Assembly (NCBI RefSeq): GCF_019603315.1
Contig: NZ_CP080649.1
Coordinates: 124,001 to 188,000 of the forward strand
Origin: Ruficoccus sp. ZRK36
GTDB lineage: Bacteria > Verrucomicrobiota > Verrucomicrobiia > Opitutales > Cerasicoccaceae
Length of the DNA: 64,000 nucleotides
Direction: 5' to 3'
Positions 8,124 to 23,864 of this stretch are shown here, piece by piece; position 1 is the first letter of the stretch, and each line of letters begins with the position of its first letter. The notes beneath the pieces were generated by a model, which saw nothing but the letters and a program-made list of their open reading frames with translations, searched no databases and had not been told where the DNA came from. Both the position numbers and the translations under genes were made by a program.

Positions 8124-9836
8124 CTAAAGCCGCTCGATATAGACGTAGTAAGCGCCCTGCAGGAGTTGACCAGCCTCGTCGAGGAAGTACGCCTCCAGCA
8201 CATCCTCACCGGCTTTCAGCTCAGCAGTGATCTCGGCAAAGACCTCACCGGATTTGACGGGGACGGTAGCCTCGACATCGCCGAGACGGATCTTTGCCGC
8301 CGAGGGGGCGATGATCTCGCAGGGCGCGCGGTCATCGTTGGCGACCGGAGCGTCGATGGACAGGTCGAGCTCTTCCGGCCAACGCTGGAGCTTGAAGCGG
8401 TACTTGCCGTCGGCCACGACCTTGACGTTCCAGCGGCCCGAGCAGGTCTGCGCGCGGATGATGTTCTCCTGCCGCCAGACCATATCGCCCATCACATCCA
8501 TGGCATCCAGCCGCACCGGGTTCTCCTCCGGGCACCCCAGATACAGGGGGCAAAAGACCTTCAGCCCCTCCTCGACCTCGGCCCAGTAGGCCTCGTAGTC
8601 CGCCAGCATCTGCGCGGCCAGCTCGGGATGCTCGGCGGCCACATCTTTGCGCTGACCGGGGTCCTCGCCGATATGGTACAGCTCCCGGCCCTTAACCAGA
8701 CGCCAGGGGCCGCGCATCATCGAGGTGTCCCACTTGCGGGGCGGCTCGGTATTCTGGCGAAAGTTGACGAAGATGTTGCGCTCCTCAGGGGCCGGAGCGT
8801 CCGGGCTGAGCTGTGCGCGGAAGGACTGGCCGTCGAAGGCGGTATCGGCTGGCGGCTCCAGTCCAAACAGCTCGATGAAGGTCGGCAAGAGGTCGATATA
8901 GTTGGCGGGCGAGGGAATATCCACCCCACCCTGCATGCCGCCCTGAGGCCAGCGGATGAAGAACGGCACACGGTGCCCGCCCTCGTAGACCGAGGCCTTT
9001 CTGCCGCGCATACCGGCGTTGTAGCCGCTGACACAGAACTCGTCTTCGTCCATCTGCATGCCGCCGGAGGTACCGTTGTCGGTCATGAAAATGAGCACCG
9101 TATTTTCAGCCAAGCCAGTTTCCTGCAGCATTCCCTCCAGGCGACCGACATTCTCGTCGATGTTCGTGATCATCCCGTAGAACTCCGGGTTGGCGATCTC
9201 GGGGTTACCCCGGTAGGGAGCGGCATAGCGGTCAGCTACCCGGTAGGGATCGTGCGGGGCGTTCGTCGCCAGGTAGCAGAAGAAGGGACGGTCCGCATCC
9301 TTGTTTTCGCGGATGTAGGCCATCGCCTCGTCAAACCACACGTCCGTACAGTAGCCGTTGTGCTCGACCGGATCGCCGTTGTGGAAATACGTGTCGTCGA
9401 AGTAGCTGTTACCCCAAAAGTCCGGCACCTGGCCGACGCCGCCACCCCTGTGCGCCACGACCTTTTCAAAGCCCCGGTCCTGCGGGCGGTACGGGTAGCT
9501 GTCCCCGAGGTGCCACTTACCGAAGAGGCCCGTCGCATAACCACTGGCACGGAAGACCTCGGGCATCAGCACCTGATCGGCACGCAGGATGGAGCGGCCC
9601 CAGGCGGTGGCCCAGGCTCCGTTGCGGGCCGGATAGCGCCCGGTCATCATCCCGCCGCGGGTCGGCGTACACAGCGGAGCGACGTGGAAGTCCGTCAGCC
9701 GGTAGCTGTCTCCATGGAGGCGGTCGATATTGGGCGTGTTGATCCACGGGTTACCGGTGCAGGCCAGGTCACCGTAGCCCTGGTCATCCGTCATGATCAG
9801 GATCACATTAGGTTTCTTCGCGGGGTCGGAATTCAT
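8124..9836 (-). CDS. Family S1 sulfatase (formylglycine-dependent)
   Basis: S1 sulfatases hydrolyse sulfate esters using a formylglycine made from cysteine or serine. The 570-residue product has the metal-binding start NVILIMTDDQGYGD (about residues 10-23). The maturation signature CTPTR (56-60) makes C56 the residue converted to formylglycine. Further conserved segments are GKWHLG and TDNG. The C-terminal ~120 residues form a beta-rich extension. I chose the ATG at 9836. The longer frame to 9929 adds a non-conserved stretch without a signal peptide. From either start no secretion signal is evident, so the enzyme may act in the cytoplasm on imported oligosaccharides. An anaerobic or FGE-type maturase would be needed and is not in this window. 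It is divergent from the GH29 fucosidase across the palindromic element. Confidence 0.93.
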   Translation of the reverse strand: MNSDPAKKPNVILIMTDDQGYGDLACTGNPWINTPNIDRLHGDSYRLTDFHVAPLCTPTRGGMMTGRYPARNGAWATAWGRSILRADQVLMPEVFRASGYATGLFGKWHLGDSYPYRPQDRGFEKVVAHRGGGVGQVPDFWGNSYFDDTYFHNGDPVEHNGYCTDVWFDEAMAYIRENKDADRPFFCYLATNAPHDPYRVADRYAAPYRGNPEIANPEFYGMITNIDENVGRLEGMLQETGLAENTVLIFMTDNGTSGGMQMDEDEFCVSGYNAGMRGRKASVYEGGHRVPFFIRWPQGGMQGGVDIPSPANYIDLLPTFIELFGLEPPADTAFDGQSFRAQLSPDAPAPEERNIFVNFRQNTEPPRKWDTSMMRGPWRLVKGRELYHIGEDPGQRKDVAAEHPELAAQMLADYEAYWAEVEEGLKVFCPLYLGCPEENPVRLDAMDVMGDMVWRQENIIRAQTCSGRWNVKVVADGKYRFKLQRWPEELDLSIDAPVANDDRAPCEIIAPSAAKIRLGDVEATVPVKSGEVFAEITAELKAGEDVLEAYFLDEAGQLLQGAYYVYIERL

Positions 9837-9989
9837 ACAAAAAAAATACCCCACGGCAAAGTTACCCGACAAATTGTTTTCAACCGTCGGGCATGCCGAC
9901 CCGCCCACACACCTGTGTAAGCCCGTCAAAACTTTTTTATCAGGAGCCGCCTTGATCAGGGGCTGAAGAAAATTTTTCTGGGCAACCGC

Positions 9990-10210: not shown

Positions 10211-11965
10211 ATGACACCCGCACCCGATACCTCCGCCATTAACGCCTTTCGCCAAGCCCGCTTCGGGATGTTTATCCACTGGGGCCTCTACGCGCTGCCG
10301 GGTGGTCGCTGGAAGGGCGAGATCATGGACTACATCGGGGAGTGGCTGCAGGCACGATTCCGCATCCCCAACGCCGAATACGCCCGGCTGGCCGAGCGCT
10401 TCGATCCGGTAGACTTCGACGCGGACGCGTGGGTACGCCTCGCCGCCGAGGCTGGCATCCGCTATCTGGTTTTCACGACGAAGCACCACGACGGCTTTGC
10501 CATGTACCACAGCAAGGTCAGCCCCTTTAACATCGTGGACGCCACGCCCTTTGGCCGCGATGTGCTAAAGGAACTCGCCGAGGCCTGCGCCCGCCACGGC
10601 GTCAAACTCGGCCTGTACTACTCGCACGCGCTGGACTGGGAAGACCCCGACGGGGCCGACCCCGGCCCGGACATGCACTCCAACTTCGGGATGAGCTGGG
10701 GCAATGACTGGGAGTATCCCGAGCGCAAGGAAAAGGACTTTGCCCGCTATCTGGAGCGCAAGGCCAAGCCGCAGCTCAAAGAACTGCTCACCGGCTACGG
10801 CCCGATCTTCACCCTCTGGTTTGACTGCCCGCTGGTCATCACCCCCGAGCAGTCCGCCGAAATTCGCCAGTGGGTGAAAAGCTTCCAGCCCGATTGCCTG
10901 ATCAACAGCCGCATCGGACACGGGATGGAGGACTTCGGCAGCCTTGGCGACAATCAGCGCCCCACCGGTCGCTCCGAGTACCCACTGGAGTCACCCGTCA
11001 CCCTGAACAAAACCTGGGGCTTCAAGTGGGACGACGACAACTGGGTAGAGCCACGCAAGATCGCCTGCGAGCTGGCCACCCTCATGGACAAGAACGTCAA
11101 CTACCTCGTCAACGTCGGCCCTCAGCCCGATGGACGATTCCCGGAGGCGAGCGTGGACATCCTCCAGCAGCTCGCCCAGTGGCGCAAGGCCGAGCAGGTC
11201 ACCATCCAGGGTGCTGGCCCCAACCCCTTTGCGCAGGACTTCCCGTGGGGCTGCTGCACCACGACTGACAGTGGCCTGCAGCTGTTCGTCACGAACTGGC
11301 AGCCGATCTTAAACATCCACGGGCTTCTCAGCCCCGTGCGTAGTGCCAGCGTGCCCTTTACGCAAGACGGCGACTCCCTCACCCTCACCCTCCCGCAGTC
11401 ACACAGCCTGCTGCCCGTGATCCATATTGATTGCGGCGAACCACCCCGCGTGGACACACGCCTCATGCCGCAGCAGGGACGCCTCGACCTCATGCCCTCC
11501 CTGGCCGACATCCGCCATGGGGAGCCCACCAAGCTGGGCAAAGGCGCTAACCTCCTGGGGGCCGCTGCGGAGAAATTCGATGTCGATGCGCCCTGCTCGC
11601 TCGATGCCGGGGGTGCTCTCATGCACTGGCACCACCCCGGCGATAAATTAATCTGGCGCATCTACGTCCCCGAAGGCGGACGCTACCGCATCAGCGTCAT
11701 AACGGAGAACCAACTGCACAGCGCCCCGTGGGTGGGCGGACGCGAAGTCGCCATCGGCTTTGACAACCAGACGCTGAAGGGCTGTCTCGGGGAAGACTCG
11801 GTCCTGAGCACCGAGTTTTACGCCAGCAGTCTCTCACAGGTGGGAGAGCTGGAGATCAGCGCCCGCACCGAGCACGTCATTAGCTTGGAGAACCTCGCGA
11901 TCAGCACGCCTCAGGAGGCTCACATGAATCTCGTCGCGCTCCGCCTGGAGAAAATCGGAGACTGA
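10211..11965 (+). CDS. GH29 alpha-L-fucosidase
   Basis: GH29 enzymes remove alpha-linked L-fucose with retention of configuration. The 584-residue product opens with the family hallmark RFGMFIHWGLYALPGG (about 17-32), then KHHDGFAMYHSK (91-102), VDATPFGRDV and the nucleophile aspartate D205 in IFTLWFDCP. The catalytic (beta/alpha)8-like domain runs to about residue 350 (NYLVNVGPQPDG near 300 is conserved). A C-terminal beta-sandwich follows. There is no signal peptide, which suggests intracellular action on fuco-oligosaccharides. The neighbouring sulfatase and LacI/Gfo genes fit degradation of a sulfated fucan. The start is the first ATG before the conserved region. Confidence 0.95.
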   Translation: MTPAPDTSAINAFRQARFGMFIHWGLYALPGGRWKGEIMDYIGEWLQARFRIPNAEYARLAERFDPVDFDADAWVRLAAEAGIRYLVFTTKHHDGFAMYHSKVSPFNIVDATPFGRDVLKELAEACARHGVKLGLYYSHALDWEDPDGADPGPDMHSNFGMSWGNDWEYPERKEKDFARYLERKAKPQLKELLTGYGPIFTLWFDCPLVITPEQSAEIRQWVKSFQPDCLINSRIGHGMEDFGSLGDNQRPTGRSEYPLESPVTLNKTWGFKWDDDNWVEPRKIACELATLMDKNVNYLVNVGPQPDGRFPEASVDILQQLAQWRKAEQVTIQGAGPNPFAQDFPWGCCTTTDSGLQLFVTNWQPILNIHGLLSPVRSASVPFTQDGDSLTLTLPQSHSLLPVIHIDCGEPPRVDTRLMPQQGRLDLMPSLADIRHGEPTKLGKGANLLGAAAEKFDVDAPCSLDAGGALMHWHHPGDKLIWRIYVPEGGRYRISVITENQLHSAPWVGGREVAIGFDNQTLKGCLGEDSVLSTEFYASSLSQVGELEISARTEHVISLENLAISTPQEAHMNLVALRLEKIGD

Positions 11966-11976
11966 CCTCACCTGCC

Positions 11977-12771
11977 TTAGCGCGCACTCGCGTAGCCCGT
12001 GGCGGCAAAGGCTTCCTCATAAAAAGCCACAATCGGAGCCGGATCCGGCAAACCATGCGGGTGGTGTTTACCGCCGGGGATGGTGATCTCCCGGTAGTTG
12101 CCTCCCAGCGCCTTAAAGGTTTCGCGCAGCACGCAGGTGTTTTCCTCGTAGGGGACGGTCTCGTCACTGTCGCCGCACACATGCAGGACCGGGATTCCCG
12201 CCTGCACAATCGGGGCCAGCACGTCCTTTGACAGCGGTTGGCGTGCGTAGTTGCGGGCCTCGGCATCCGTCAGGCCATAGACAGCGAGCAGCTTGGCCCA
12301 GTCTCCGGGACCGCCGGGGCCAGCCCCCATGCCGCCCGGCCAGGTCCGAAAATCGCAGACCGGATTATCCGCGTACAAAGCGAAGACCTTCTCCGGGTGG
12401 GCCGAGGTGTAATTGTAAGCGGAGAGACCAGCCCGGCTCATGGCAAGAATCCCCATGCGGGGAGACAGACCGAGATCGGTGGTCGCCATCGTGTGCATGC
12501 GGTCAAAAGCCGCCACCGCGCGTGGGCAGCCGTAGTGGTCCGGCAACTCCAAAAAGGCCAGCACCCAGCCACGCTCCAGCAGCGCCAACTGCGTATTCGG
12601 AAAAGCCTCGAAGAACTCCGGCTTCCAGACCCACGGGTGTCCTGCCGCCAGCTCACGCGGCAAAACGAAGCGGCAGGGGATGCCCCCACACTCCAGCTTC
12701 CATTGTTCAAAACCTTCCCACTCGGAGCACTCGGCTCCGCGGGATTGAAAGAATTCACGCATGGCTTTCAT
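11977..12771 (-). CDS. Alpha/beta hydrolase (putative esterase/peptidase-like)
   Basis: With an ATG start at 12771 the product is 264 residues; the open frame extends to a TTG at 12858 without better support. The likely nucleophile is S112 in GILAMSRAGLSAYN, a variant of the GxSxG elbow in which the first glycine is alanine. It is followed by the segment ALYADNPVCDFRTWPGG. Candidate acid and base are D203 (CGDSDETVPY) and H236 (GGKHHPHG). This resembles uncharacterised alpha/beta hydrolases found beside glycoside hydrolases in Planctomycetes and Verrucomicrobia. It might remove acyl groups from glycans, but that is inferred only from neighbours. The gene is convergent with the fucosidase, 11 bases apart at the stops, with no terminator between. 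Confidence 0.75.
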   Translation of the reverse strand: MKAMREFFQSRGAECSEWEGFEQWKLECGGIPCRFVLPRELAAGHPWVWKPEFFEAFPNTQLALLERGWVLAFLELPDHYGCPRAVAAFDRMHTMATTDLGLSPRMGILAMSRAGLSAYNYTSAHPEKVFALYADNPVCDFRTWPGGMGAGPGGPGDWAKLLAVYGLTDAEARNYARQPLSKDVLAPIVQAGIPVLHVCGDSDETVPYEENTCVLRETFKALGGNYREITIPGGKHHPHGLPDPAPIVAFYEEAFAATGYASAR

Positions 12772-12950
12772 CGGTCGAAGCCCATCTCGATACACCCCAC
12801 ACAGCTCATTGACAACCCCTCTCTTTAACTGAACCACATCTCCGCACAAAGAGATCAAACCTTAGCGCAAAAAGGCACTCAGAACGGCAGTACGCCCATC
12901 CCTGAGACAGAGAACCATACAATCCGCTGAGAATTATCCGCAGTTATGAG

Positions 12951-12979
12951 TTGAATCAAACGACGGAGGGCAGACAATA
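12951..12979 (+). promoter_or_regulatory. Possible sigma-70-type promoter for the amidoligase operon
   Basis: TTGAAT (12951-12956) and ACAATA (12974-12979) are separated by 17 bases and lie about 30 bases before the first ATG of the operon. The match to consensus is moderate and Verrucomicrobial promoters are little studied. Confidence 0.3.
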
Positions 12980-13008: not shown

Positions 13009-15579
13009 ATGACTGCTGCCCGCAAGAAACGCAAGTACGCTCACTTCAAGGCCGCCAACAGCCCGCGCGATGAACTCATCCATCCCGCCGCTGGCGAGGC
13101 CTCGGCCTATGCGCCTGTCCTGGACATTGTAGAATCACTCAGCCCCGCCGAGCTGCGTGAACGTCAGGAGCGCCTGGAGCGCTCGGCCCGCGACGTGGGC
13201 ATCCACTTCGGGGTCGTCGAGGACGGTAAGCCCCGCGAAGCCGATTGGCGGCTCGATGTGCTGCCACGCATCATCGCCCGTGGCGAGTGGGAGATGCTGC
13301 GTGAAGGCATCCTCCAGCGCGCCCGCGCCTTTGACGCCTTTATCCGGGACATGCACAACGAGCAGGACATCCTGCGGCAGCGCGTGCTCCCACACGGACT
13401 CCCTCTGGGGGACCCGGCCTTTCAGCGCCCCTTGACCACCATCGATGTGCCCGGCGGCCAGTACTGCCACATCGGAGCCTTTGACCTCGTGCGCGGGGAG
13501 GATGGCCAGTGGCGCGTACTGGAGAACCACATGGCGACCTCCTTCGGGATGTCGCTGGCCATGCAAAATCGCCGCATGCTCGCGCAGGCCTTTCCGGAGC
13601 TGTTCCAGTCCATGGACATCAGCCCGGTGGCCCCCTTCATCACCCAGTTTTCCGAAAACCTCCGCGCCGCCTCTGGCCAGTCAAACCCGCACATCGTCCT
13701 GTTGACCCGGGGTGAGACGAACCAGGCGTACTTCGATGAGAGCTTTCTGGCCCGCCAACTCGGTATCGCCATGGTCCGCCCGGCGGACCTGCTCATCCGC
13801 GAGGGCCGTGTATTCCTGAAGACCATCCGCGGGCTGGAGCAGGTGGACGTCATCTACCGGCGGCTGGCCAGCGCTGCCATCGACCCGATCGCCTTCGCCG
13901 AGTCGGGCATCCCCGGCATCCCCGGCATCGTCAACTGCGTGCGCAACGGCACGGTACGCTTCGTCAACGCCCTGGGCTGCGGCGTGGCCGACAACCGCTC
14001 GCTGCTGCGGCATTCGCGTCAGCTCATCGGCTTTTACCTCAAAGAGCACGCCATCCTCGACTCGGTCCCGACCTACAACTGCGCCGACCGCGACCAGTTC
14101 GACTACATCCTCTCGAATAAGGATGACATGGTCCTCAAGCCGATCCAGGACTCCTACACCCTGTTCCGCTACTTCGGGGGCAAACAGCTGCCCGAGAAAC
14201 GCAGCCGCCTGCTGCGTCTGGCCCGCAAGTGGCCGCACCTGTTCGTCGCCCAGCCTTATCTGCACCCTTCGCAGCTACCCTGCTACGGGCCGGACGGGTT
14301 CAAGTCGCACAGCGTGTACCTGCGAGTCTTTTTCCAGCTCGGAGAGAAACCCTCCGTGCTGCCCGGCGGGCTCACCCGCCAGAGCTGGGGCATGCACCGA
14401 GACAACCCGCTGACCATCATGTCCGAGGGCATGAAGGACACCTGGGTCCCCGCTCAGCCCTTTGAGTACGCCTCCACCCCGGACCGCGTCACACTCAACC
14501 CCGACGAGTACTCCATCAGCTCCCGTCTGGCCGAGGGCCTTTACTGGACTGGCCGCTATCTGGAGCGCATGCAGAACACCGCCCGCCAGCTCAACATCCT
14601 GGAGACCCTGCGCTGGGATCAGCTCGGCCGCGCCGCCCAGCGCAGCTACTGGCCACTGTGGAAAGCCGTGGCCGCCGCCAACGGCCAGAGCCAATGGTCC
14701 AAGCGCAAGAGCCCGCCCAAGGATACACTCGCCATGACGCGGGCTCTGGTCCTCAAGGCCGACGAGCCCTCGTCCATTATTTCCAGTGCCACCGCCGCCT
14801 TCCTCGGAGCCCAGCACATCCGCGACTCGATCAGCCCGGAGGTCTGGCAGGTATTGAGCGAGTTTTACTGGTTCCTGCAAGAGGCCGCGCGTACGCCCAA
14901 GGCTTCCCGCACCCGCCTGCGCGAAATCTGCCAACGCATCGTGGACGATGCGGCCCGCCTGGCCGGGACCGCCGACCGCACCATGCTTCATGACGACTCC
15001 TGGCAGTTCTTCCGGATTGGTTCCTTCATCGAGCGGGCTCAGGGCACCGCCACTGTGCTGTGCGAAGTGCTCTCCTGGGTCGCCGCCAACCGCGCCGAGG
15101 GTAACACCGACGAGGCCGACCTGACCTCCCTGCTGCGCCTGCTCACTTCTCTCGATGCCTACCGGCGTGAGTTCCGCTCCCGCGCCTACCTGGAGCGCGT
15201 GGTGAACCTCCTGCTGCAAAACGCCTGCAACCCCAGCTCGGTCAGCCACTGTCTACGCCAGCTGCGCTACGCGGTGAGCACCCTCTCCATCTCGGATGCC
15301 ACCAATGCCCCCACCGCGCTGGATGAGTCGGTTAATAAACTCATCGCCAAGGTCGAGGGCCTGCCCCTGCAGAGCTTGATGCCCTCCTCCGTCCAGGAGC
15401 TGGACTCTGGACTGCTCGAATCCGCTGCCGGACCGCGCCCGGAAATGAAATTTATCCTCGAATCTCTCACTCGGGAACTAGAATTGCTGCATGACCGCTT
15501 CGAAGACACGTTCTTCAGCCATCAGACTGAGTTCTATCCCGATCGCCAGCTCCCGCTGGACTGGCAACCCGACGAGTAA
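13009..15579 (+). CDS. Circularly permuted ATP-grasp fused to alpha-E domain
   Basis: The 856-residue protein has an N-terminal circularly permuted ATP-grasp domain (about residues 30-490), followed by an alpha-helical alpha-E (DUF403) domain (about 500-840, beginning SSRLAEGLYWTGRYLERMQNTARQL). Recognisable ATP-grasp segments are IDVPGGQYCHIGAFDLVR, VDVIYRRL, and SVLPGGLTR with DTWV near 445-485. Family members are predicted peptide amidoligases found beside transglutaminase-like and DUF2126 proteins; no substrate is established. The segment expected to contain a glycine-rich nucleotide loop reads VLKPIQDSYTLFRYFGGK, less glycine-rich than usual. The stop TAA overlaps the next ATG by one base (TAATG), indicating coupled translation. 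It is the first gene of a four-gene operon. Confidence 0.9.
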   Translation: MTAARKKRKYAHFKAANSPRDELIHPAAGEASAYAPVLDIVESLSPAELRERQERLERSARDVGIHFGVVEDGKPREADWRLDVLPRIIARGEWEMLREGILQRARAFDAFIRDMHNEQDILRQRVLPHGLPLGDPAFQRPLTTIDVPGGQYCHIGAFDLVRGEDGQWRVLENHMATSFGMSLAMQNRRMLAQAFPELFQSMDISPVAPFITQFSENLRAASGQSNPHIVLLTRGETNQAYFDESFLARQLGIAMVRPADLLIREGRVFLKTIRGLEQVDVIYRRLASAAIDPIAFAESGIPGIPGIVNCVRNGTVRFVNALGCGVADNRSLLRHSRQLIGFYLKEHAILDSVPTYNCADRDQFDYILSNKDDMVLKPIQDSYTLFRYFGGKQLPEKRSRLLRLARKWPHLFVAQPYLHPSQLPCYGPDGFKSHSVYLRVFFQLGEKPSVLPGGLTRQSWGMHRDNPLTIMSEGMKDTWVPAQPFEYASTPDRVTLNPDEYSISSRLAEGLYWTGRYLERMQNTARQLNILETLRWDQLGRAAQRSYWPLWKAVAAANGQSQWSKRKSPPKDTLAMTRALVLKADEPSSIISSATAAFLGAQHIRDSISPEVWQVLSEFYWFLQEAARTPKASRTRLREICQRIVDDAARLAGTADRTMLHDDSWQFFRIGSFIERAQGTATVLCEVLSWVAANRAEGNTDEADLTSLLRLLTSLDAYRREFRSRAYLERVVNLLLQNACNPSSVSHCLRQLRYAVSTLSISDATNAPTALDESVNKLIAKVEGLPLQSLMPSSVQELDSGLLESAAGPRPEMKFILESLTRELELLHDRFEDTFFSHQTEFYPDRQLPLDWQPDE

Positions 15580-16469
15580 TGCGCTTCAAGGTCACCCATA
15601 CCACCCGCTACCGGTACAAGACTCCCGCCTCGGAGTCTTACGCGGAGCTGCGCGTGTGGCCCCAAAACGGGCCGACGCAGAAAATACTCAGCCATAAGCT
15701 GGAGATCACCCCCGCTGTACCGGTGGACCACTACACCGATTACTTTGGTAACAAGGTCGAGTACTTCTCCATCCCTTTCCGGCACAACGAGCTCTCCGTC
15801 GACGCCGTAGGCGAGGTCGAAACCCATGAAGGGCCTGATCTGTCCCGCGTTCTGGAGACACGCGTCGGGGATGCCCGTCAGATCCTGGCCAGCCAGGCCA
15901 TCAACACTTTTGACTTCATCCAGAACACCGAGCTCGTCCCCTACTACCGCATCAAGGACGAAGTGGACCGCCCGAACTTCCGCGATGCCGAAACCATCGG
16001 CGAGGCCATCCACGGGCTTAACACCTGGATCTACGAGAACTTCGCCTACTCGCCCGGCAGCACCGACATCGGCACCCCCCTGCCCACCGTGCTCGAGACC
16101 CGCCAGGGCGTCTGCCAGGACTTCGCTCATTTGATGCTGGCCATCCTGCGCATGCAGGGCATCCCGGCCCGCTACGTCAGCGGCTACATCGAGCCCTACG
16201 ACCCGACCAAGCCCGGGGCCGAGATGACCGGGGCTGCCGCCAGCCATGCCTGGGTCGAGGTGTACCTGCCCGGCGGGCACTGGTACGGGCTCGACCCGAC
16301 GAACAATCAGGCCGCCGGTCTGCGGCACGTACGCGTGGCCTCCGGGCGCGACTACAACGACGTAGCCCCGATGCGTGGTGCCTACAAAGGCGCTCAGGAC
16401 CAGCGCCTGCAGGTTATTGTCACTCTTAAACGCCGCCGTCCCCGTAAAACCGTTTCTTCCCGATCATGA
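15579..16469 (+). CDS. Transglutaminase-like cysteine peptidase family protein (first copy)
   Basis: The 296-residue product starts with the beta-sandwich typical of bacterial transglutaminase-like proteins (MRFKVTHTTRYRYKTPASES). The papain-like catalytic domain has all three catalytic residues: C179 (RQGVCQDFAH), H223 (ASHAWVEVY) and D239 (GLDPTN). Such proteins may cleave or transfer at peptide amide bonds. In this gene neighbourhood they are predicted to work with an ATP-grasp ligase in peptide synthesis or modification. No signal peptide is seen. The gene overlaps its upstream neighbour by one base and its downstream neighbour by four (ATGA), so the proteins are probably made in fixed ratio. 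Confidence 0.92.
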   Translation: MRFKVTHTTRYRYKTPASESYAELRVWPQNGPTQKILSHKLEITPAVPVDHYTDYFGNKVEYFSIPFRHNELSVDAVGEVETHEGPDLSRVLETRVGDARQILASQAINTFDFIQNTELVPYYRIKDEVDRPNFRDAETIGEAIHGLNTWIYENFAYSPGSTDIGTPLPTVLETRQGVCQDFAHLMLAILRMQGIPARYVSGYIEPYDPTKPGAEMTGAAASHAWVEVYLPGGHWYGLDPTNNQAAGLRHVRVASGRDYNDVAPMRGAYKGAQDQRLQVIVTLKRRRPRKTVSSRS

Positions 16470-17359
16470 TCCAGGTCGAAATCGAACACACCACCCGCTA
16501 CCGGTACGACAAGCCGGTCAGCTTCGGCCCTCATCAGTTGTTCCTGTATCCGCGTGAAAACCAGGTTGTCCGCGCGCAGGACTTCAAGCTGGAGACCTAT
16601 CCGGCCGCTCCCACCCGCTGGGTGCGCGACTGCTTCGAAAACGTGGTCGCGCGTACGGACTTCGGAATTCACGTCTCCGAGCTGCTGGAGTTCAGCGCCC
16701 TGATTCAGGTACGGCTGCGCATCGAGAACCCCTTTGACTTCATCCTCGACCCCCACGCCATGGCCTACCCCATGCGCTACCAGCCCAAAGAGGAGACAGC
16801 CCTCGGGGCCTACCTGCAGGAAGGTGTCAGTGCCGGAGCCAACCGCGTGCTCGACTGGTTCTACCACGCCGTCAGCAACCCCATGCGCTCGGACAACATC
16901 GTTTCCTTTCTTTCCGAGATCAACACGGCCATCTTTAAGGACATCACCTACCAGCGCCGGGATGAAATGGGCATCCAGACGCCGGACGAGACGCTGGAAA
17001 CCCGCTCCGGCTCGTGCCGGGACATGGCCGTGCTCATGATCGCCCTCGTCCGCCAGCTCGGCCTGGCCGCCCGATTCGTGAGCGGCTATCTCTACGATCC
17101 GCCCCCCAAGGAGGGTGAGGAAGACCACTCCTTTAACCGTGCCCGCGGCTCCATGCATGCCTGGGTCGAGATCTACCTGCCCGGCGCGGGCTGGAAGGGC
17201 TTTGATCCGACCAACGGCATTCTCGCCAACCATTATTTCATCCCCACCGCCGTCTCCAGCGACCCCTACTGGGTCAACCCGATCCAGGGCCGCTACTATC
17301 ATGACGAGGCGGTGGAATCTCACATGGAGGTAGAACTCAACATCCGGGAAATCACATGA
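16466..17359 (+). CDS. Transglutaminase-like protein (second copy, DUF2126 partner)
   Basis: The 297-residue product has the same architecture as the preceding gene but is clearly divergent. Its triad is C184 (SGSCRDMAVL), H231 (SMHAWVEIY) and D248 (GFDPTNG). In many bacteria this domain is the N-terminal part of one ~1100-residue polypeptide whose C-terminal part is DUF2126. Here the two parts are separate genes joined by an ATGA overlap (17356-17359). That arrangement strongly suggests that this protein and the next one form one functional unit. The enzymatic reaction is not established. Confidence 0.92.
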   Translation: MIQVEIEHTTRYRYDKPVSFGPHQLFLYPRENQVVRAQDFKLETYPAAPTRWVRDCFENVVARTDFGIHVSELLEFSALIQVRLRIENPFDFILDPHAMAYPMRYQPKEETALGAYLQEGVSAGANRVLDWFYHAVSNPMRSDNIVSFLSEINTAIFKDITYQRRDEMGIQTPDETLETRSGSCRDMAVLMIALVRQLGLAARFVSGYLYDPPPKEGEEDHSFNRARGSMHAWVEIYLPGAGWKGFDPTNGILANHYFIPTAVSSDPYWVNPIQGRYYHDEAVESHMEVELNIREIT

Positions 17360-19455
17360 AAAACACGCCGCAGACTCTCGCCGCCGCCCTCGAAGCTTTT
17401 TTCACTGCCCGCGACATTCACCTGACCATGGGCGGCGAGCCCACCTTCGTGCCCCTCCAGCCGGAGGCAGCCGAGTGGAACACTGCGGCGATGGGCGAGG
17501 AAAAACTCGGCTATGCCCGACGCTTTACCGGCGAGCTGCTCAAGCAGGCCTATCCCGGTGGCCTCGCCATGCAGGTCTTTGGCAAGCACTACCCCGGCGA
17601 ACCTCTGCCGCGGTGGAACATGCTCACCCTCCACCCCAAAAAAGGCCCCGCTCTGTGGCCCTCACCCGAGCGCCTGCTACTGGACGATGTAGAAGGGCAC
17701 AACGAGCCTGAGGCTGCCCGCGATCTCGTCAAAGCCCTTGCCGCCGAGCTCAAGCTCTCCGACTTTGCCCTGCCCTGCGCCGAACAGGGCGAGCGCAAAA
17801 CCGCCGCATGGGTGCTCCCCCTCGACCATGAGGACGGCAAATGGATTTCCGCCACCTGGCCCTTCACGACACGCCAGCCGGTCAAGCTCATCCCGGGGGA
17901 CAGCCCCGCAGGCTTGCGCCTCCCGCTTTCCGAGCTGTCCGAAGATACCCTGAAGCGTGCCCTCACGGTTGAAGCACGCCACGGCGCCCTGGAGGTGTTC
18001 TTCCCGCCGCTGGAGTGGAAGCCTTTCCGCGAGCTGGCCGGGATGATTTTTTCCATCGTGGAGAAGCAGGACCTGCACGAGCTGGTCTTCTGTGGCTATG
18101 CCCCCTCCGGCTGCGGCCCGACCGTGGAGAAGTTTTCCCTCGCCGCCGACCCCGGCGTACTTGAGGCTAATCTCCCCCCCTGCCCGGACTGGGAGACGTA
18201 CCAGCGCTGTCTGGACCAGATGTATGACACCGCCGAGTCCACTGGACTGCGCGCGGTCAAGTACCACCTCAACGGCTCTGTCCAGGCCACCGGCGGCGGC
18301 TCGCACCTGTGCTTTGGCGGTCCCGACGAGAAGCGCAACCCCTTCCACCGCGACCCGGCCCTGCTGGCCTCCATCCTGCGCTACTGGCAGCACCACCCCG
18401 CTCTCGGGTACTTTTTTACCGGGCAGTACGTCGGCACCGGCTGTCAGGCCCCCCGCATCGACGAGAGCGGCACCCATGCCGCCTACGAGCTGGAGCTCGC
18501 CTGCGAGGCACTGGAATCCTCCCAGCCCGACCCCGAGCAGATCGACCGGCTCCTGCGCAACCTCCTGACCGACTCCAGCGGGAACACCCACCGCGCGGAA
18601 ATCTGCGTGGACAAGTACCATAACTACGCCGCCCCCAACGGCAAGACCGGCATCATCGAGCTACGCGCCTTCGAGGTCTTCCCCACCGCCGAGATGCTTG
18701 GGCTGGCCGGGCTCTTTATCCGCACCCTTATCGCCCGCCTCGTAGTAGAGCCTTTCCGGGAACCGATGCACCGCTTTGGCCCCGAGCTGCACGACAAGTA
18801 CTTCCTCCCCGCCGCCCTGTGGGCCGATCTGGGAGCGATCTGCCGCGACCTTAAAAAGCACGGCTTCGACTTCAAGCTGGAGTGGCTGCGCCCGCTGCTG
18901 GACTTCCGCTTCCCGCTGCGCGGCGAGCTCGATCTGGGCAAGGACGCGACACTGACCGTCCGGCAGGCCCTGGAGGCCTGGCCGCTCATGGCCGAGGAAA
19001 ACATCGGCGGGCCCACCGTGCGCATGGTGGACAACTCCACCGACCGGCTGGAGCTTTCGCTCTCCGACAAGTCCCTGCTCGAAACTCACGCCCTGCTCTG
19101 CAACGGCGTAGAAATCCCCTGGCAGCGTATCGGTGGTCAATCCGTCTGCGGCCTGCGCTACAAGTGCGCCAGCGGCTGGCCCGCCCTGCACCCGCATGTG
19201 CCCATCCAGGCGCCGCTGCTTTTCCAGTGGATCAACCGGAAAACCCGCCGCATCGCCAAAGCCGCCCACTACTACTACTGGAATCCACACGGCCCCGTCT
19301 ACCACGGCCGCCCCAAAGATGCCGAGGAGGCCACCAAGCGCTCGACCGAGCGCTGGCGCATCCTGCCCCCGACCGACGAAAAGGCTGACACCCGCGAGGC
19401 CCGGAGTTTCCCGGAAATGCGTTTTACCCTCGATTTGCGGCGGCACGCGCATTGA
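17356..19455 (+). CDS. DUF2126 protein, predicted amidoligase component
   Basis: The 699-residue protein corresponds to the DUF2126 (COG4196) region normally fused behind a transglutaminase domain. Recognisable family segments are HLTMGGEPTFV (about residues 22-32) and a glycine-rich stretch ATGGGSHLCFGGPD (about 313-326). Toward the C-terminus there are YYYWNPHGPVYHGRP (about 639-653) and a WRILPPT end. The family has been predicted to be related to the glutamine-synthetase/glutamate-cysteine-ligase fold, so an amide-bond-forming activity is plausible but untested here. It follows the second transglutaminase gene with a four-base overlap. A peptide-transporter operon starts 37 bases after its stop. 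I see no Anbu-type protease gene, a partner known in some related clusters. Confidence 0.88.
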   Translation: MKNTPQTLAAALEAFFTARDIHLTMGGEPTFVPLQPEAAEWNTAAMGEEKLGYARRFTGELLKQAYPGGLAMQVFGKHYPGEPLPRWNMLTLHPKKGPALWPSPERLLLDDVEGHNEPEAARDLVKALAAELKLSDFALPCAEQGERKTAAWVLPLDHEDGKWISATWPFTTRQPVKLIPGDSPAGLRLPLSELSEDTLKRALTVEARHGALEVFFPPLEWKPFRELAGMIFSIVEKQDLHELVFCGYAPSGCGPTVEKFSLAADPGVLEANLPPCPDWETYQRCLDQMYDTAESTGLRAVKYHLNGSVQATGGGSHLCFGGPDEKRNPFHRDPALLASILRYWQHHPALGYFFTGQYVGTGCQAPRIDESGTHAAYELELACEALESSQPDPEQIDRLLRNLLTDSSGNTHRAEICVDKYHNYAAPNGKTGIIELRAFEVFPTAEMLGLAGLFIRTLIARLVVEPFREPMHRFGPELHDKYFLPAALWADLGAICRDLKKHGFDFKLEWLRPLLDFRFPLRGELDLGKDATLTVRQALEAWPLMAEENIGGPTVRMVDNSTDRLELSLSDKSLLETHALLCNGVEIPWQRIGGQSVCGLRYKCASGWPALHPHVPIQAPLLFQWINRKTRRIAKAAHYYYWNPHGPVYHGRPKDAEEATKRSTERWRILPPTDEKADTREARSFPEMRFTLDLRRHAH

Positions 19456-19492
19456 CCCCGGCCCGGATGTGCGTTTTGATCTGCGCCCATTG

Positions 19493-21127
19493 ATGCGGTT
19501 CCTGCTCCTCATACTCGCCCTCACGCTGCTTGCTGGCTGCGGTCGCCACCGTACGCCGGTGGAAAAAGCCAACGAGGAGGGCATCCTGCTCATCGGTAAT
19601 GGCACCGACCCGAAGGACCTCGACCCGCAGATCACCACCGGGCTGCCCGAGTTTGTCGTGCAGACCTCGCTCTTTGAGGGGCTGACCACGCCCAACCCAA
19701 AGACCTCCGCCCCCGAGCCCGGCGTCGCCGAGAGCTGGACCGTCAACGCAGACAGCACGGTCTTCACCTTTCACCTGCGCCCCGAGGCCCGCTGGTCCAA
19801 CGGCGACCCCGTCACCGCGCAGGACTTCGCCTTCTCCTACGAGCGCATCCTCAGCCCGGCCTTTGCCGCCGAGTACGCGATGCTGCTCTTCCCGATCAAA
19901 AACGCCCGCGCCTTTAACGCCGGGGAGGTCACGGACTTCTCAAAGGTCGGCGTCAAGGCACTCGATACGCACACCCTGGAGCTCACACTGGAGGGCCCGA
20001 CGCCCCACCTGCCCACCGTTATCAGCCACAACGCCTACTTTCCGGTCCACCCGCCCACCATTTTAAAGTTCGGCAAGATGACCGACCGGCACACCCGCTG
20101 GACCAAGCCCGGCAACCTCGTCTCCAACGGCCCCTTCCAGCTCGAAGACTGGAACCTCAACGAGCGCGTCCTGGTCAAGCGCAACCCCTACTACTGGGAC
20201 GCCGACACCGTGCGCCTCAACGGCATCGCCTTCCTGCCCATCACCAACCAGAACACCGAGGAGCGGGCCTTCCGCTCCGGGCAGCTCCACGTCACCAACT
20301 CCGTGCCCCTGAGCAAGCGCGACGCCTACCGGCTCGCGGACTCGCCCGACCTGCACATGGACCCCTGGCTGGGCACCTACTACTACCTGCTCAACACCGC
20401 ACGCCCCCCCTTTGACGACCCGCTCGTGCGCGAGGCCTTCAACGCCGCCATCGACCGGCAGGCGCTGGTGGACACCGTCACCCGCGGCGGAGAGACCATA
20501 GCCTTCTCCATTGTCCCCCCCAACATGGAGCCCTACCAGCCCCCCGCCAGCCCGATAAGGGAAGACGTGGCGCACGCGCAAAAGCTCCTCGCCGAGGCGG
20601 GCTACCCCGGCGGCAAGGGCTTCCCCACGGTCGAGCTCCTTTACAATACCTCCGAGACACACCGCCCCATCGCCGAAGCCCTCCAGCGCATGTGGTACGA
20701 CAACCTCGGGGTCGAGGTCGATCTGGTCAACCAGTCCTGGCCCGTCTACCTCGACCGCCGCAAAAAGGGCGACTACGACATCGCACGGGCCGGGTGGTTC
20801 GGCGACTTCAATGACGCCAGCACCTTTCTGACCATGTGGACCGCCGACTCCGGCCTCAACCACTCCGGCTGGGCCAGCCCGGAGTTTGACGCGCTGATCA
20901 AGCAGTCCGAGATGACCGGCGACCCCACCGAGCGCTTAAACATCCTCCGCGAGGCCGAGTCGGTCTTTCTGCGCGACATGCCGATCATCCCGCTGTACTA
21001 CTACAACCGCATCTACCTCAAGCGCCCCGAGGTCAAAGGCTGGTACCCGAACCTGCTCGACCTGCACCCCTTCAAGTATGTGTATCTGGAAACGGATACA
21101 CCGGCCAAGAGCGAATCCGGCAACTAA
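19493..21127 (+). CDS. Peptide ABC transporter substrate-binding lipoprotein (OppA/DppA family)
   Basis: From the ATG at 19493 the product is 544 residues with a short lipoprotein signal ending LLAGCG (acylated C16). The open frame runs further upstream into the DUF2126 gene, but only this start gives the signal. The mature part is a family 5 extracellular solute-binding protein, with the features GTDPKDLDPQ, FHLRPEARWSNGDPVTAQDF and NAAIDRQALVDTV. Such proteins deliver oligopeptides to the permease pair encoded just downstream. Its position directly after the amidoligase genes suggests that this transporter handles a peptide related to that pathway, or recycles peptides for it; this is inference. 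No ATPase subunit follows in the window. Confidence 0.93.
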   Translation: MRFLLLILALTLLAGCGRHRTPVEKANEEGILLIGNGTDPKDLDPQITTGLPEFVVQTSLFEGLTTPNPKTSAPEPGVAESWTVNADSTVFTFHLRPEARWSNGDPVTAQDFAFSYERILSPAFAAEYAMLLFPIKNARAFNAGEVTDFSKVGVKALDTHTLELTLEGPTPHLPTVISHNAYFPVHPPTILKFGKMTDRHTRWTKPGNLVSNGPFQLEDWNLNERVLVKRNPYYWDADTVRLNGIAFLPITNQNTEERAFRSGQLHVTNSVPLSKRDAYRLADSPDLHMDPWLGTYYYLLNTARPPFDDPLVREAFNAAIDRQALVDTVTRGGETIAFSIVPPNMEPYQPPASPIREDVAHAQKLLAEAGYPGGKGFPTVELLYNTSETHRPIAEALQRMWYDNLGVEVDLVNQSWPVYLDRRKKGDYDIARAGWFGDFNDASTFLTMWTADSGLNHSGWASPEFDALIKQSEMTGDPTERLNILREAESVFLRDMPIIPLYYYNRIYLKRPEVKGWYPNLLDLHPFKYVYLETDTPAKSESGN

Positions 21128-21140
21128 ACAGTAATCCTTC

Positions 21141-22058
21141 ATGCTAACCTTTGTCCTTAGACGTTTCCTCGAAGCCATTCTGGTGCTCTGGCTCATCGTG
21201 ACGGCGACGTTCTTCATGGTGCGACTGGTGCCGGGTGGGCCGTTTGATGGCGAGAAGGACATCCCCGAGGTCACCCGCCAGCAGCTGGAGGCCTACTACG
21301 GCCTCGATAAACCGCTGCCCGTGCAGTACCTCAACTATCTCGGTAACCTCGTGCAGGGAGACCTCGGCACCACCTTTAAATATCAGGGCTGGACGGTGAA
21401 CGAAATCATCGCCCGCAAGCTGCCCGTCTCCTTTGAGCTGGGGGCGCTCGCCATGGGCATCGCGCTGGTCATCGGCATCGGCGCCGGTGTACTGGCCGCC
21501 TGGCGGCCCGGTACCACAACGGACACCGCCCCCATGTCGCTGGCCATGCTCGGTATCTGCCTGCCCACGTTTGTGCTGGGGCCGCTGCTCATCCTTGTAT
21601 TCGGATTAAAACTACACCTCGTCAATGTCATGGGCTGGAACCTGCCGCAGGACCGCATCCTGCCTGCGCTGACGCTGGGCCTGTTCTATGCCGCCTATGT
21701 GGCCCGCCTCACCCGTGCCAGCATGCTGGAGATTCGCCGTGAGGACTACATGCGCACGGCCCGCGCCAAAGGGCTGCCCGAGGCGCGCGTGTACCTGCTG
21801 CACGGCCTGCGCAACGGCCTCTCCCCCGTCGTCTCCTATCTCGGCCCCGCCCTGGCCGGGCTGATCAGCGGCTCCTTTGTGGTGGAGACTATCTTTAACA
21901 TCCCCGGACTGGGCCGGTTTTTCGTGCAGGCCGCCCTCGACAACGACTACACCATGGTCCTCGGCTGCGTGCTCTTTTACGCCGCTCTCATCATCGTCTT
22001 TAACCTGATCTCGGACATCCTGCTGGTTTGGCTCAACCCCCGGAGGAAGCTCTCGTGA
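21141..22058 (+). CDS. Peptide ABC transporter permease (OppB/DppB type)
   Basis: The 305-residue integral membrane protein has about six predicted membrane segments. The DppB/OppB N-terminus is present (MLTFVLRRFLEAILVLWLIVTATFFMVRLVPGGPF), with the family sequence YGLDKPLPVQYLNYLGNLVQGDLG. The EAA-type cytoplasmic loop (RTARAKGLPEARVYLLHGLRNGL) contacts the ATPase. It starts 13 bases after the binding-protein gene and overlaps the next permease by four bases (GTGA). With OppC it forms the inner-membrane channel of a peptide importer. Confidence 0.95.
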   Translation: MLTFVLRRFLEAILVLWLIVTATFFMVRLVPGGPFDGEKDIPEVTRQQLEAYYGLDKPLPVQYLNYLGNLVQGDLGTTFKYQGWTVNEIIARKLPVSFELGALAMGIALVIGIGAGVLAAWRPGTTTDTAPMSLAMLGICLPTFVLGPLLILVFGLKLHLVNVMGWNLPQDRILPALTLGLFYAAYVARLTRASMLEIRREDYMRTARAKGLPEARVYLLHGLRNGLSPVVSYLGPALAGLISGSFVVETIFNIPGLGRFFVQAALDNDYTMVLGCVLFYAALIIVFNLISDILLVWLNPRRKLS

Positions 22059-22927
22059 AGAACTTCGGGGAAAAAGCCGCGCCGGTGGCCGGACGCTCGC
22101 TGGGCGCCGATGCCTGGCGCCGCCTCTGCGCCAACCGCATGGCCATGGGCGGGCTGGCCTTTACCGTGCTGGTCACGCTGGCCTGCATCGTCGGCCCGTG
22201 GCTGCTGCCGCACGCTCCCGAGACGCAGGACCTCGCCCTCGGTGCCAGCGGTCCAAGCGCCACGCACTGGCTGGGCACGGACACCCTCGGGCGCGATCTG
22301 CTGGCGCGCATCCTCAGCGGCGGGCGCGTCTCGCTGATGGTGGGAGCCGTCGCCACGACAGTGGCCCTCGTCATTGGAGTCAGCTACGGGATCGTCTCCG
22401 GCTACGCCGGAGGCCGCACCGATCGCCTCATGATGCGCTTTGTCGAGATCATCTACTCGATGCCCTTCACGGTCTTCGTCATCATCCTGATGGTGGTCTT
22501 CGGGCGGCACCTGTGGCTGATATTCGTCGCCATCGGGGCGGTCGAGTGGCTGACCATGGCCCGCATCGTGCGCGGCCAGGTCCTCGCCCTGCGCGAGCAG
22601 GCCTTTGTCCAGGCCTCGCGCAGCCTCGGGCAGGGTCCCTTAAAGATCATGACCCGCCACCTGCTGCCCAACCTGCTGGGCGTGATCATCGTCTACGCCA
22701 CCCTGACCGTGCCCGGTGTCATGCTGCTGGAGGCCTTTATCAGCTTTCTCGGGCTGGGCGTGCAGCCGCCGGACACCAGCTGGGGCGACCTCATCCGCGC
22801 CGGAGCCGAGAGCATGGAGGAGTACCCCTGGCTGCTCATCTATCCCAGCCTGTTTTTCTCCGCCACCCTCTTCTCGCTCAACTTCCTCGGGGACGGCCTG
22901 CGCGACGCCCTTGACCCCAGGGCTTAG
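22055..22927 (+). CDS. Peptide ABC transporter permease (OppC/DppC type)
   Basis: I chose GTG at 22055 because it overlaps the preceding stop as GTGA and lies six bases behind a good ribosome binding site (GGAGG at about 22042-22046). This gives 290 residues. The frame upstream to a TTG at 22028 is unlikely to be used. Features are the OppC segment WLGTDTLGRDLLARILSGGRVSL, five to six membrane segments, and the EAA loop QASRSLGQGPLKIMTRHLLPN. The gene ends the operon. The ATP-binding subunits normally encoded after oppC are missing here and must be elsewhere, since a hairpin array and an oppositely oriented gene follow. Confidence 0.93.
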   Translation: MKNFGEKAAPVAGRSLGADAWRRLCANRMAMGGLAFTVLVTLACIVGPWLLPHAPETQDLALGASGPSATHWLGTDTLGRDLLARILSGGRVSLMVGAVATTVALVIGVSYGIVSGYAGGRTDRLMMRFVEIIYSMPFTVFVIILMVVFGRHLWLIFVAIGAVEWLTMARIVRGQVLALREQAFVQASRSLGQGPLKIMTRHLLPNLLGVIIVYATLTVPGVMLLEAFISFLGLGVQPPDTSWGDLIRAGAESMEEYPWLLIYPSLFFSATLFSLNFLGDGLRDALDPRA

Positions 22928-23123: not shown

Positions 23124-23864
23124 CTACCCCCACACAAGGCGGCAGCGGCAGATGGCTTCGGAGCCGCGGAGGGTTTCGACCACGGTCTCGTCCTCGGAGA
23201 GATCGTGACGCGTCAGGCGCAGCGCGTCCCCGAAGTAACCCTCGGCCAGATAGGTAATTTCAAAACGCCGGATGGCTTTCTCCCGGTACTCAGACAGGTC
23301 GAACACATCGAGGCTATGCTCGATGTACTTCACGCTGTTGAGGTGGCCGTTGATATCGATGTCGCTGTAGCCCACCGTGTAATCGCGCGCGGATACACCA
23401 TCAGGTGTGCCAGCCGGGATCTTTTTCATGCGCGCAATCGGGCACTCGGTCTCTTCGCAGACATAGTCCGCGATGTCCGGACGCCAGGACGGGATGTTGA
23501 CCGGCCGGCGGGTCTCCATATTGAGGGCGACCCACACGCTGCGGGCGTAGCCGATGGGCTGCCCCTGCTCACCCAGAAAGCGGAAGCAGCGCTGCGTGTA
23601 AAAGCGGGCCACCGCCTCCACCCAGGTTTCAATCGTCAGCGACTGATCCCGGTGCGGCGGCTCCAGCCACTCGATCGCCATCTTTGTCAGTACCCAGGCG
23701 ACGCCGTCGCGTGAAATATGCTCGTACCCGAACCCGCGCTCGTGCGCGTGGCGGCTGGCTGCATGCAGGATCATCCCGCCCAGCAGCGGCATCGGAGCCC
23801 GCCCCTGAAAATCGCACATGTAGGACTGGATGTGAAAGGGGAAGGAACCGACTTTGGATGACAT
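23124..23864 (-). CDS. Acyl-ACP thioesterase (double hotdog)
   Basis: From the ATG at 23864 the product is 246 residues, the usual size for bacterial members of the plant FatA/FatB-like acyl-ACP thioesterase family. The first hotdog covers about residues 1-125 (AWVLTKMAIEWLEPPHRDQSL, RCFRFLGEQGQPIGYARSVW). The second contains the conserved YSDIDINGHLNSVKYIEH (about 172-189), whose Asn/His are catalytic in the family. It releases free fatty acids from acyl carrier protein in the cytoplasm. The open frame upstream of 23864 overlaps trmL and is not family-like. It follows trmL by 28 bases on the same strand and may be co-transcribed. Fatty-acid synthesis genes are present at 60-62.6 kb. Confidence 0.88.
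   Translation of the reverse strand: MSSKVGSFPFHIQSYMCDFQGRAPMPLLGGMILHAASRHAHERGFGYEHISRDGVAWVLTKMAIEWLEPPHRDQSLTIETWVEAVARFYTQRCFRFLGEQGQPIGYARSVWVALNMETRRPVNIPSWRPDIADYVCEETECPIARMKKIPAGTPDGVSARDYTVGYSDIDINGHLNSVKYIEHSLDVFDLSEYREKAIRRFEITYLAEGYFGDALRLTRHDLSEDETVVETLRGSEAICRCRLVWG

Follow-up and report, generated by a model that had tools for sequence, protein, structure and literature searches.

Operons that join ATP-grasp, Alpha-E and transglutaminase genes are already in print, in two papers that both cite Iyer 2009 (PMC5666114 and PMC6376114). In the accessible text of these papers, circularly permuted ATP-grasp, Alpha-E and transglutaminase-like genes stand together in the operon of Anbu, and the role of the ATP-grasp/Alpha-E/transglutaminase genes is called unconfirmed (PMC6376114). 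Together with DUF2126, these genes are widespread. Here we describe a block of seven genes, A to G (positions 13009-22927, + strand), from Ruficoccus sp. ZRK36. The block lies in a stretch of 64,000 nucleotides, hereafter the window, which corresponds to contig 1 bases 124001-188000 of a 3.76-Mb genome that is 98.6% complete. An earlier note had put it forward as a candidate for an undescribed system. Since operons with such an enzyme core were already published, that proposal does not stand for the core, which is of a known kind. The core is also linked to genes of an Opp-type peptide transporter, and this linkage is real but restricted to one lineage.

All components of the Iyer 2009 kind of operon are found at this locus: a circularly permuted ATP-grasp domain, an Alpha-E domain, a transglutaminase with its triad, and DUF2126. 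The locus departs from the described Anbu operon in that Anbu is absent, ATP-grasp and Alpha-E are fused, a short DUF2126 stands apart from the transglutaminase, and OppABC-type genes are appended. The absence of Anbu, claimed earlier for the cluster, extends to the whole genome. No PF00227 match was found genome-wide, and we therefore rejected the idea of an Anbu gene hidden elsewhere; the same search for Anbu/HslV gave matches in 0/15 genomes, comprising the window genome and 14 relatives, and 10 of the 14 control genomes were positive.

The identities of the genes and of the module are nearly certain, all seven having been confirmed by Pfam. Successive genes are separated by −1, −4, −4, +37, +13 and −4 bases, and the block is flanked by opposite-strand neighbors with boundaries at 12858 and 23124. 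The reading of a four-gene core with overlaps of 1, 4 and 4 bases, encoding an ATP-grasp/Alpha-E protein, two transglutaminases with intact triads and a DUF2126 protein, was borne out by Pfam matches, coordinates and triads. So was that of a lipoprotein and two permeases following within 37 bases (gaps of 37 and 13, then a 4-base overlap). The identical seven-gene order recurs in all four genomes of the genus (the window genome and three congeners, L037, L039 and L042), with spacings of −4 to 104 nt and proteins 68-95% identical to those of the window. Because the order is the same in 4/4 genomes, the layout is more than chance. A to G likely form one operon.

Gene A (13009..15579, +) encodes an 856-aa protein in which a circularly permuted ATP-grasp ligase is fused to Alpha-E (Pfam PF14403/PF04174/PF04168). 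The ATP-grasp domain is recognized by CP_ATPgrasp_2 (PF14403, 381 bits, 5.8e-114) and the Alpha-E domain by PF04168 (201 bits, 3.5e-59), with the ER motif WTGRYLER at residue 513. By sequence, A has a single relative in the PDB, 3n6x (284 bits, 1.9e-83). Its predicted structure (predicted local distance difference test score, pLDDT, 81.2) aligns with 3n6x at Z 39.0 over 442 residues, and with glutathione synthetases, YgiC/YjfC and glutathionylspermidine synthetase at Z of about 19-25, with Foldseek values down to 8.8e-31. The Alpha-E part of the model drew solely matches of helical-bundle type, at Z 12.5 and below. Thus, the model indicates that A has the fold of peptide-amine ligases. The likeness to glutathionylspermidine synthetase and YgiC/YjfC lies in the shared fold of the ATP-grasp part; unlike glutathionylspermidine synthetase, A carries no amidase domain in a Pfam search. 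The window genome holds a second circularly permuted ATP-grasp, split and accompanied by a stand-alone Alpha-E, near 1.545 Mb (L192:8195-10527), and at least two Alpha-E matches were present in 25 of the 27 genomes searched.

Genes B (15579..16469, +; 296 aa) and C (16466..17359, +; 297 aa) encode transglutaminase-like proteins 1 and 2. B matches PF08379 and PF01841 and, in the PDB, 3isr (2.8e-15); C matches Bact_transglu_N and Transglut_core. Both retain an intact Cys-His-Asp triad, C179-H223-D239 in B and C184-H231-D247 in C, and among transglutaminase matches in the fetched loci kept at E<=1e-30 and at least 38% identity (weaker ones being dropped), the triad is also intact in 15/15 matches of B and 36/36 of C. 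An inactive transglutaminase with transmembrane helices belongs to another operon, rlo, according to the accessible text of PMC12239564 and PMC12096838. By eye, neither B nor C has an evident signal peptide, and A to D are therefore taken as cytosolic.

Gene D (17356..19455, +) encodes a 699-aa DUF2126 protein of short type, recognized by PF09899 at 595 bits (cut-off 27). By sequence, a profile search of the PDB returned a sole match, at E 0.73, which we attribute to chance. The AlphaFold2 model (pLDDT 89.7; predicted template modeling score, pTM, 0.91) matches weakly in Foldseek, where the best E is 4.1e-3, no match reaches E<=0.001, and the top 50 rows are all glutamine synthetase, GmaS or Dop. 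VIA-align, its rows drawn from Foldseek's candidates, gave glutamine synthetase in 50/50 rows shown, at Z 10.3-11.7 with ~200-290 residues aligned. The model thus points to a glutamine-synthetase fold for D, a likeness of fold to glutamine synthetase, GmaS and Dop, and to that extent supports the Pfam label "putative amidoligase". Across 41 short and long sequences (the window and 40 of the best 80 of 579 DUF2126 loci in a collection of named sequences), 62 polar or aromatic positions are kept in at least 95%, and the conserved residues include E28, H317, N410-H412-R413-E415 and E435-x-R437. These may correspond to the metal- and ATP-binding motifs of glutamine synthetase. The term "DUF2126" was not found in our literature search.

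In the order, DUF2126 occurs in 67 of the 372 genomes surveyed, 46 of them with the short type, 25 with the long type and 4 with both, the types being sorted by match length. Short D is 35-41% identical to the long type and lacks ~36 alignment columns after window residue 143 and ~37 after residue 196. In seven long-type loci the transglutaminase and DUF2126 form one protein of 1,117-1,186 aa, whereas C and D are separate frames with a 4-base overlap. The long-type clusters share the order of transglutaminase then DUF2126, with circularly permuted ATP-grasp/Alpha-E and transglutaminase genes nearby (L045, L046, L050). C resembles the transglutaminase part of the seven fused loci better than B does, and by this sequence comparison C corresponds to the transglutaminase domain that long-type proteins carry joined to DUF2126. 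The separation of DUF2126 from the second transglutaminase, which the earlier note had singled out, is therefore correctly seen but not special: it is the usual state of the short subfamily in the order, and we rejected it as a window-specific feature. A C gene adjoins short D in 39/46 loci, and an A match lies in the same stretch in 20/46. Among the best 80 of 579 relatives in the named collection, four are of short type (L062, L063, L064, L086), all Verrucomicrobiota records 44-47% identical to the window; L062 (Opitutaceae) and L086 (Verrucomicrobia bacterium IMCC26134) repeat genomes of the order set and are identical over the compared stretches, and L063, a 5.3-kb contig labeled Akkermansia muciniphila, is possibly mis-binned. 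In three loci of one genus, g25 (L032, L034, L160), the fetched 19-20 kb that hold a short DUF2126 gave no match to A, B or C. Relatives of A and B are located elsewhere in the genomes G030 and G048. One stretch, L140:10001-20589, has several DUF2126 and transglutaminase matches on both strands, perhaps a local duplication. Frames of 1,752 and 1,793 aa in L091 and L115 were tried as DUF2126-ATP-grasp fusions and dropped, the DUF2126 match of L115 lying in another frame.

The last three genes encode the substrate-binding protein and permeases of an Opp-type transporter. E (19493..21127, +; 544 aa) is an OppA-like peptide-binding lipoprotein, with an SBP_bac_5 match of 335 bits and a lipobox-like LLAGC at residue 12. 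F (21141..22058, +; 305 aa) is an OppB-type permease (PF00528, BPD_transp_1), and G (22055..22927, +; 290 aa) an OppC-type permease (PF00528 and OppC_N), whose start we judge better placed at GTG 22055, with a GTGA overlap, than at TTG 22028. Against the PDB, E matches OppA at 1.1e-108 and MppA (4toz/3o9p) at 1.4e-94, and its R432, W435 and D438 align with R413, W416 and D419 of the OppA chain, which we take to contact the peptide. The set of SBP_bac_5, OppB and OppC is thus present, in the same order as in the E. coli-type OppABCDF importer. Unlike that importer, E-F-G lacks adjoining OppD and OppF, none lying between 22927 and the end of the opposite-strand gene at 23124 (as the note had also seen), and all three proteins miss the NCBIfam equivalog cut-offs (OppA 402/947, OppB 325/388 and OppC 326/433 bits). 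A relative of E is found in all 15 genomes searched, and a complete OppABCDF set in one of the relatives (G029, L177). Five of the six other genomes of the family, and the sister genus G005, carry a counterpart of E at 50-56% identity; for F and G the corresponding values are 61-68% in G005 and a second sister genus, G004. These identities appear to fit vertical descent, and on that ground we rejected a foreign origin of E-F-G.

Linkage of the transporter to D was checked in relatives, as the earlier note had proposed. Forty-six short-DUF2126 loci were read, and four with almost no sequence 3′ of D (L152, L168, L172, L173) were dropped, leaving 42 readable. E-F-G directly follows D in 4/4 genomes of the genus, and E alone does so in G005 (L035), so the linkage held in the congeners and in part in one sister genus; in the other readable loci it failed (0/37). 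Farther off, an E-like gene lies 5.4 kb 3′ of D in G105 (L174, 44% identity), and in G008 (L049) one of 50% identity is found 5.5 kb from a D of the long type. Otherwise, outside the genus, the transporter orthologs occupy other places in the genome.

The transporter's ATPases are likely supplied by another operon. In the window genome, contig 1 carries two pairs of oligo_HPY ATPases, one at 2.09 Mb in operon y and one at 2.96 Mb in operon z. Operon y comprises a binding protein, a fused 820-aa permease and two ATPases. In the congeners G001, G002 and G003 and the sister genus G004, the y pair gave the sole oligo_HPY matches detected, so F and G use either this pair or another ATPase type. Because these genomes hold the y permeases plus separate OppB and OppC relatives of F and G without adjoining ATPases, sharing of the pair is the simplest reading, and y is the likely source of ATPases for F and G. 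In the accessible text of PMC12136057, MppA uses the Opp translocator, a precedent for components shared between peptide transporters; here, in contrast, the binding protein and both permeases are orphans and would borrow ATPases. The y ATPases also precede A in three genomes, in the same orientation: by 82 nt in G002, by 36 nt in G004 and by 1.3 kb in G001, where a contig break interrupts y and a frame of the opposite strand lies in the interval. Since DUF2126 is not matched in G004, the y-A linkage is independent of D. In L145, a single weakly similar ATPase (33-34%) upstream of A was taken as an ordinary ABC ATPase, as were ABC ATPases of 24-36% identity near long-type L079, L083, L095, L115, L116, L120 and L134 and those in L155, L161 and L169.

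Two features of these permease genes may be recorded here. The y permease of the window genome joins OppB- and OppC-type permeases in one 820-aa frame with two BPD_transp_1 stretches (L058:5441-7900); in G007, G008 and G041 the two types occupy separate frames. Near 2.96 Mb, a 1,098-aa frame (L059:4478-7771) joins a peptide-binding-protein part (~150-534) to an OppB permease part (758-1092).

Our best reading, held tentatively and at somewhat less than an even chance, is that the module serves peptide salvage and remodeling and receives its peptides from an Opp importer whose ATPases are shared. Functional coupling of the enzyme core and the transporter is itself possible, if short of probable. 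In this scheme, E would capture short peptides and F and G would carry them inward, powered by the y ATPase pair, which would also drive y's own permease. Given the chemistry of their families, B and C may cut or transfer amide bonds of the incoming peptides through the Cys-His-Asp triad. A, which resembles glutathione and glutathionylspermidine synthetases, and D, with its predicted glutamine-synthetase fold, may convert carboxylates to acyl phosphates and then create new amide or gamma-glutamyl bonds. The outcome would be salvage and remodeling of peptides, and possibly nitrogen economy. For the latter there is no more than a hint, since the accessible text of PMC5666114 reports Anbu to be raised in P. 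putida under nitrogen limitation. What is inferred in this scheme is the nature of the substrates, the direction of flow, the sharing of ATPases and co-transcription. A stronger version, which we consider unlikely, holds that the module at heart serves imported peptides and that in this family it can form a super-cluster with two importers, y-A-B-C-D-OppABC (the arrangement of G002), both permeases being driven by a single ATPase pair and supplying a line of peptide remodeling.

Several observations weigh against peptide salvage through a coupled importer. The D-E-F-G linkage does not extend beyond one genus, apart from E by itself in a second, and 37 of the 42 readable short-DUF2126 loci carry none of E, F and G directly 3′ of D. 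At 1e-8, none of E, F, G or the y and z binding proteins or permeases is matched in the best 80 of 579 DUF2126 loci. Of the 31 distinct, unbroken A matches that have 1 kb or more of upstream sequence, just 3 have operon y in the 3 kb before A; this count omits L195 (the L039 region read twice) and matches with less than 1 kb upstream (the second of L167, L172 and L204). In the window genome itself, y lies at 2.09 Mb and not upstream of A, and a third transporter, z, comes with ATPases of its own. G004 (L191, L206) keeps A, B and C without DUF2126, with B and C apart from A, and the parts are therefore separable. Because trmL and smpB, 3′ of the block, are also syntenic in all four congeners, shared descent accounts for part of the conserved order. 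Finally, in the accessible text of the Anbu papers, expression of the Anbu operon was unchanged under various conditions (PMC5666114) and stable complexes of Anbu with its operon partners were not found (PMC6376114).

In one alternative, the transporter is a passenger: the core would do a job of its own, such as protein tagging or the synthesis of a peptide for storage or signaling, and an orphan OppABC would have landed behind it by rearrangement and stayed because read-through expression suited it. The loci with no Opp genes directly 3′ agree with such an origin, as does the scattering of OppA, OppB and OppC orthologs in the family, where F-G of G004 stay together at a site away from a lone E, and F and G of G005 are apart. 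Tagging is relayed as a published, unconfirmed idea in the accessible text of PMC6376114. However, two different peptide transporters are found at the two ends of the module, y beside A in two genera and E beside D in two genera, which would be rare for random neighbors, and we regard a passenger transporter as somewhat unlikely.

We consider it quite improbable that A to D make a secreted peptide product (a signal, a metallophore or another natural product) that the Opp importer retrieves. Substrate-binding families related to E are named by NCBIfam for binding nickel or opine metallophores, and we take their roles to lie in metallophore retrieval. The A model aligns at Z 20.6 and 16% identity with Cp1B, a fungal stand-alone ATP-grasp ligase that, in the accessible text of PMC12568646, makes a small pseudodipeptide in E-64 biosynthesis. 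Yet the seven genes include no exporter, precursor, tailoring enzyme or regulator, and the frequency of DUF2126 in the order (67/372 genomes) is more like that of a general function. Recycling of the cell wall, in which E-F-G would import murein tripeptide as MppA does via Opp and the ligase module would rejoin or trim gamma-D-Glu peptides, is very unlikely: E does match the MppA structures at ~1e-94, and YejBEF-YepA recycles peptidoglycan in Agrobacterium (accessible text of PMC9790009), but E is nearer OppA and keeps the equivalents of OppA residues R413 and D419. A defense role for A to D was rejected, 0/4 of these proteins matching any PADLOC model.

Upstream of A, a promoter-like pair, TTGAAT-N16-GACAAT (12951..12978, +), was read by eye from an alignment of the four congeners. 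The 16-base spacing is kept in all four, the first hexamer reads TTGAAT except in G003, where it is TTGCGC, and the pair persists even in the congener whose y operon ends at a distance of 82 nt. We grade it as weak because a consensus promoter scan of the region gave 0 sites against a shuffle mean of 1.5. The neighboring frame (11980-12858, −) has no Pfam match at 1e-3. Beyond it lie an alpha-L-fucosidase-like protein (10211-11965, +) and a sulfatase (8124-9929, −), both named by eye from their translations.

If the linkage of the enzyme core to two transporters reflects function, the substrates of the module would be external peptides, and this would narrow the assays to uptake, binding by the lipoprotein and ATP-dependent ligation. 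Two peptide permeases would then rely on a single ATPase pair. More broadly, it would offer a physiological handle on a module for which the published hypotheses of its role, in the accessible text, are still unconfirmed.

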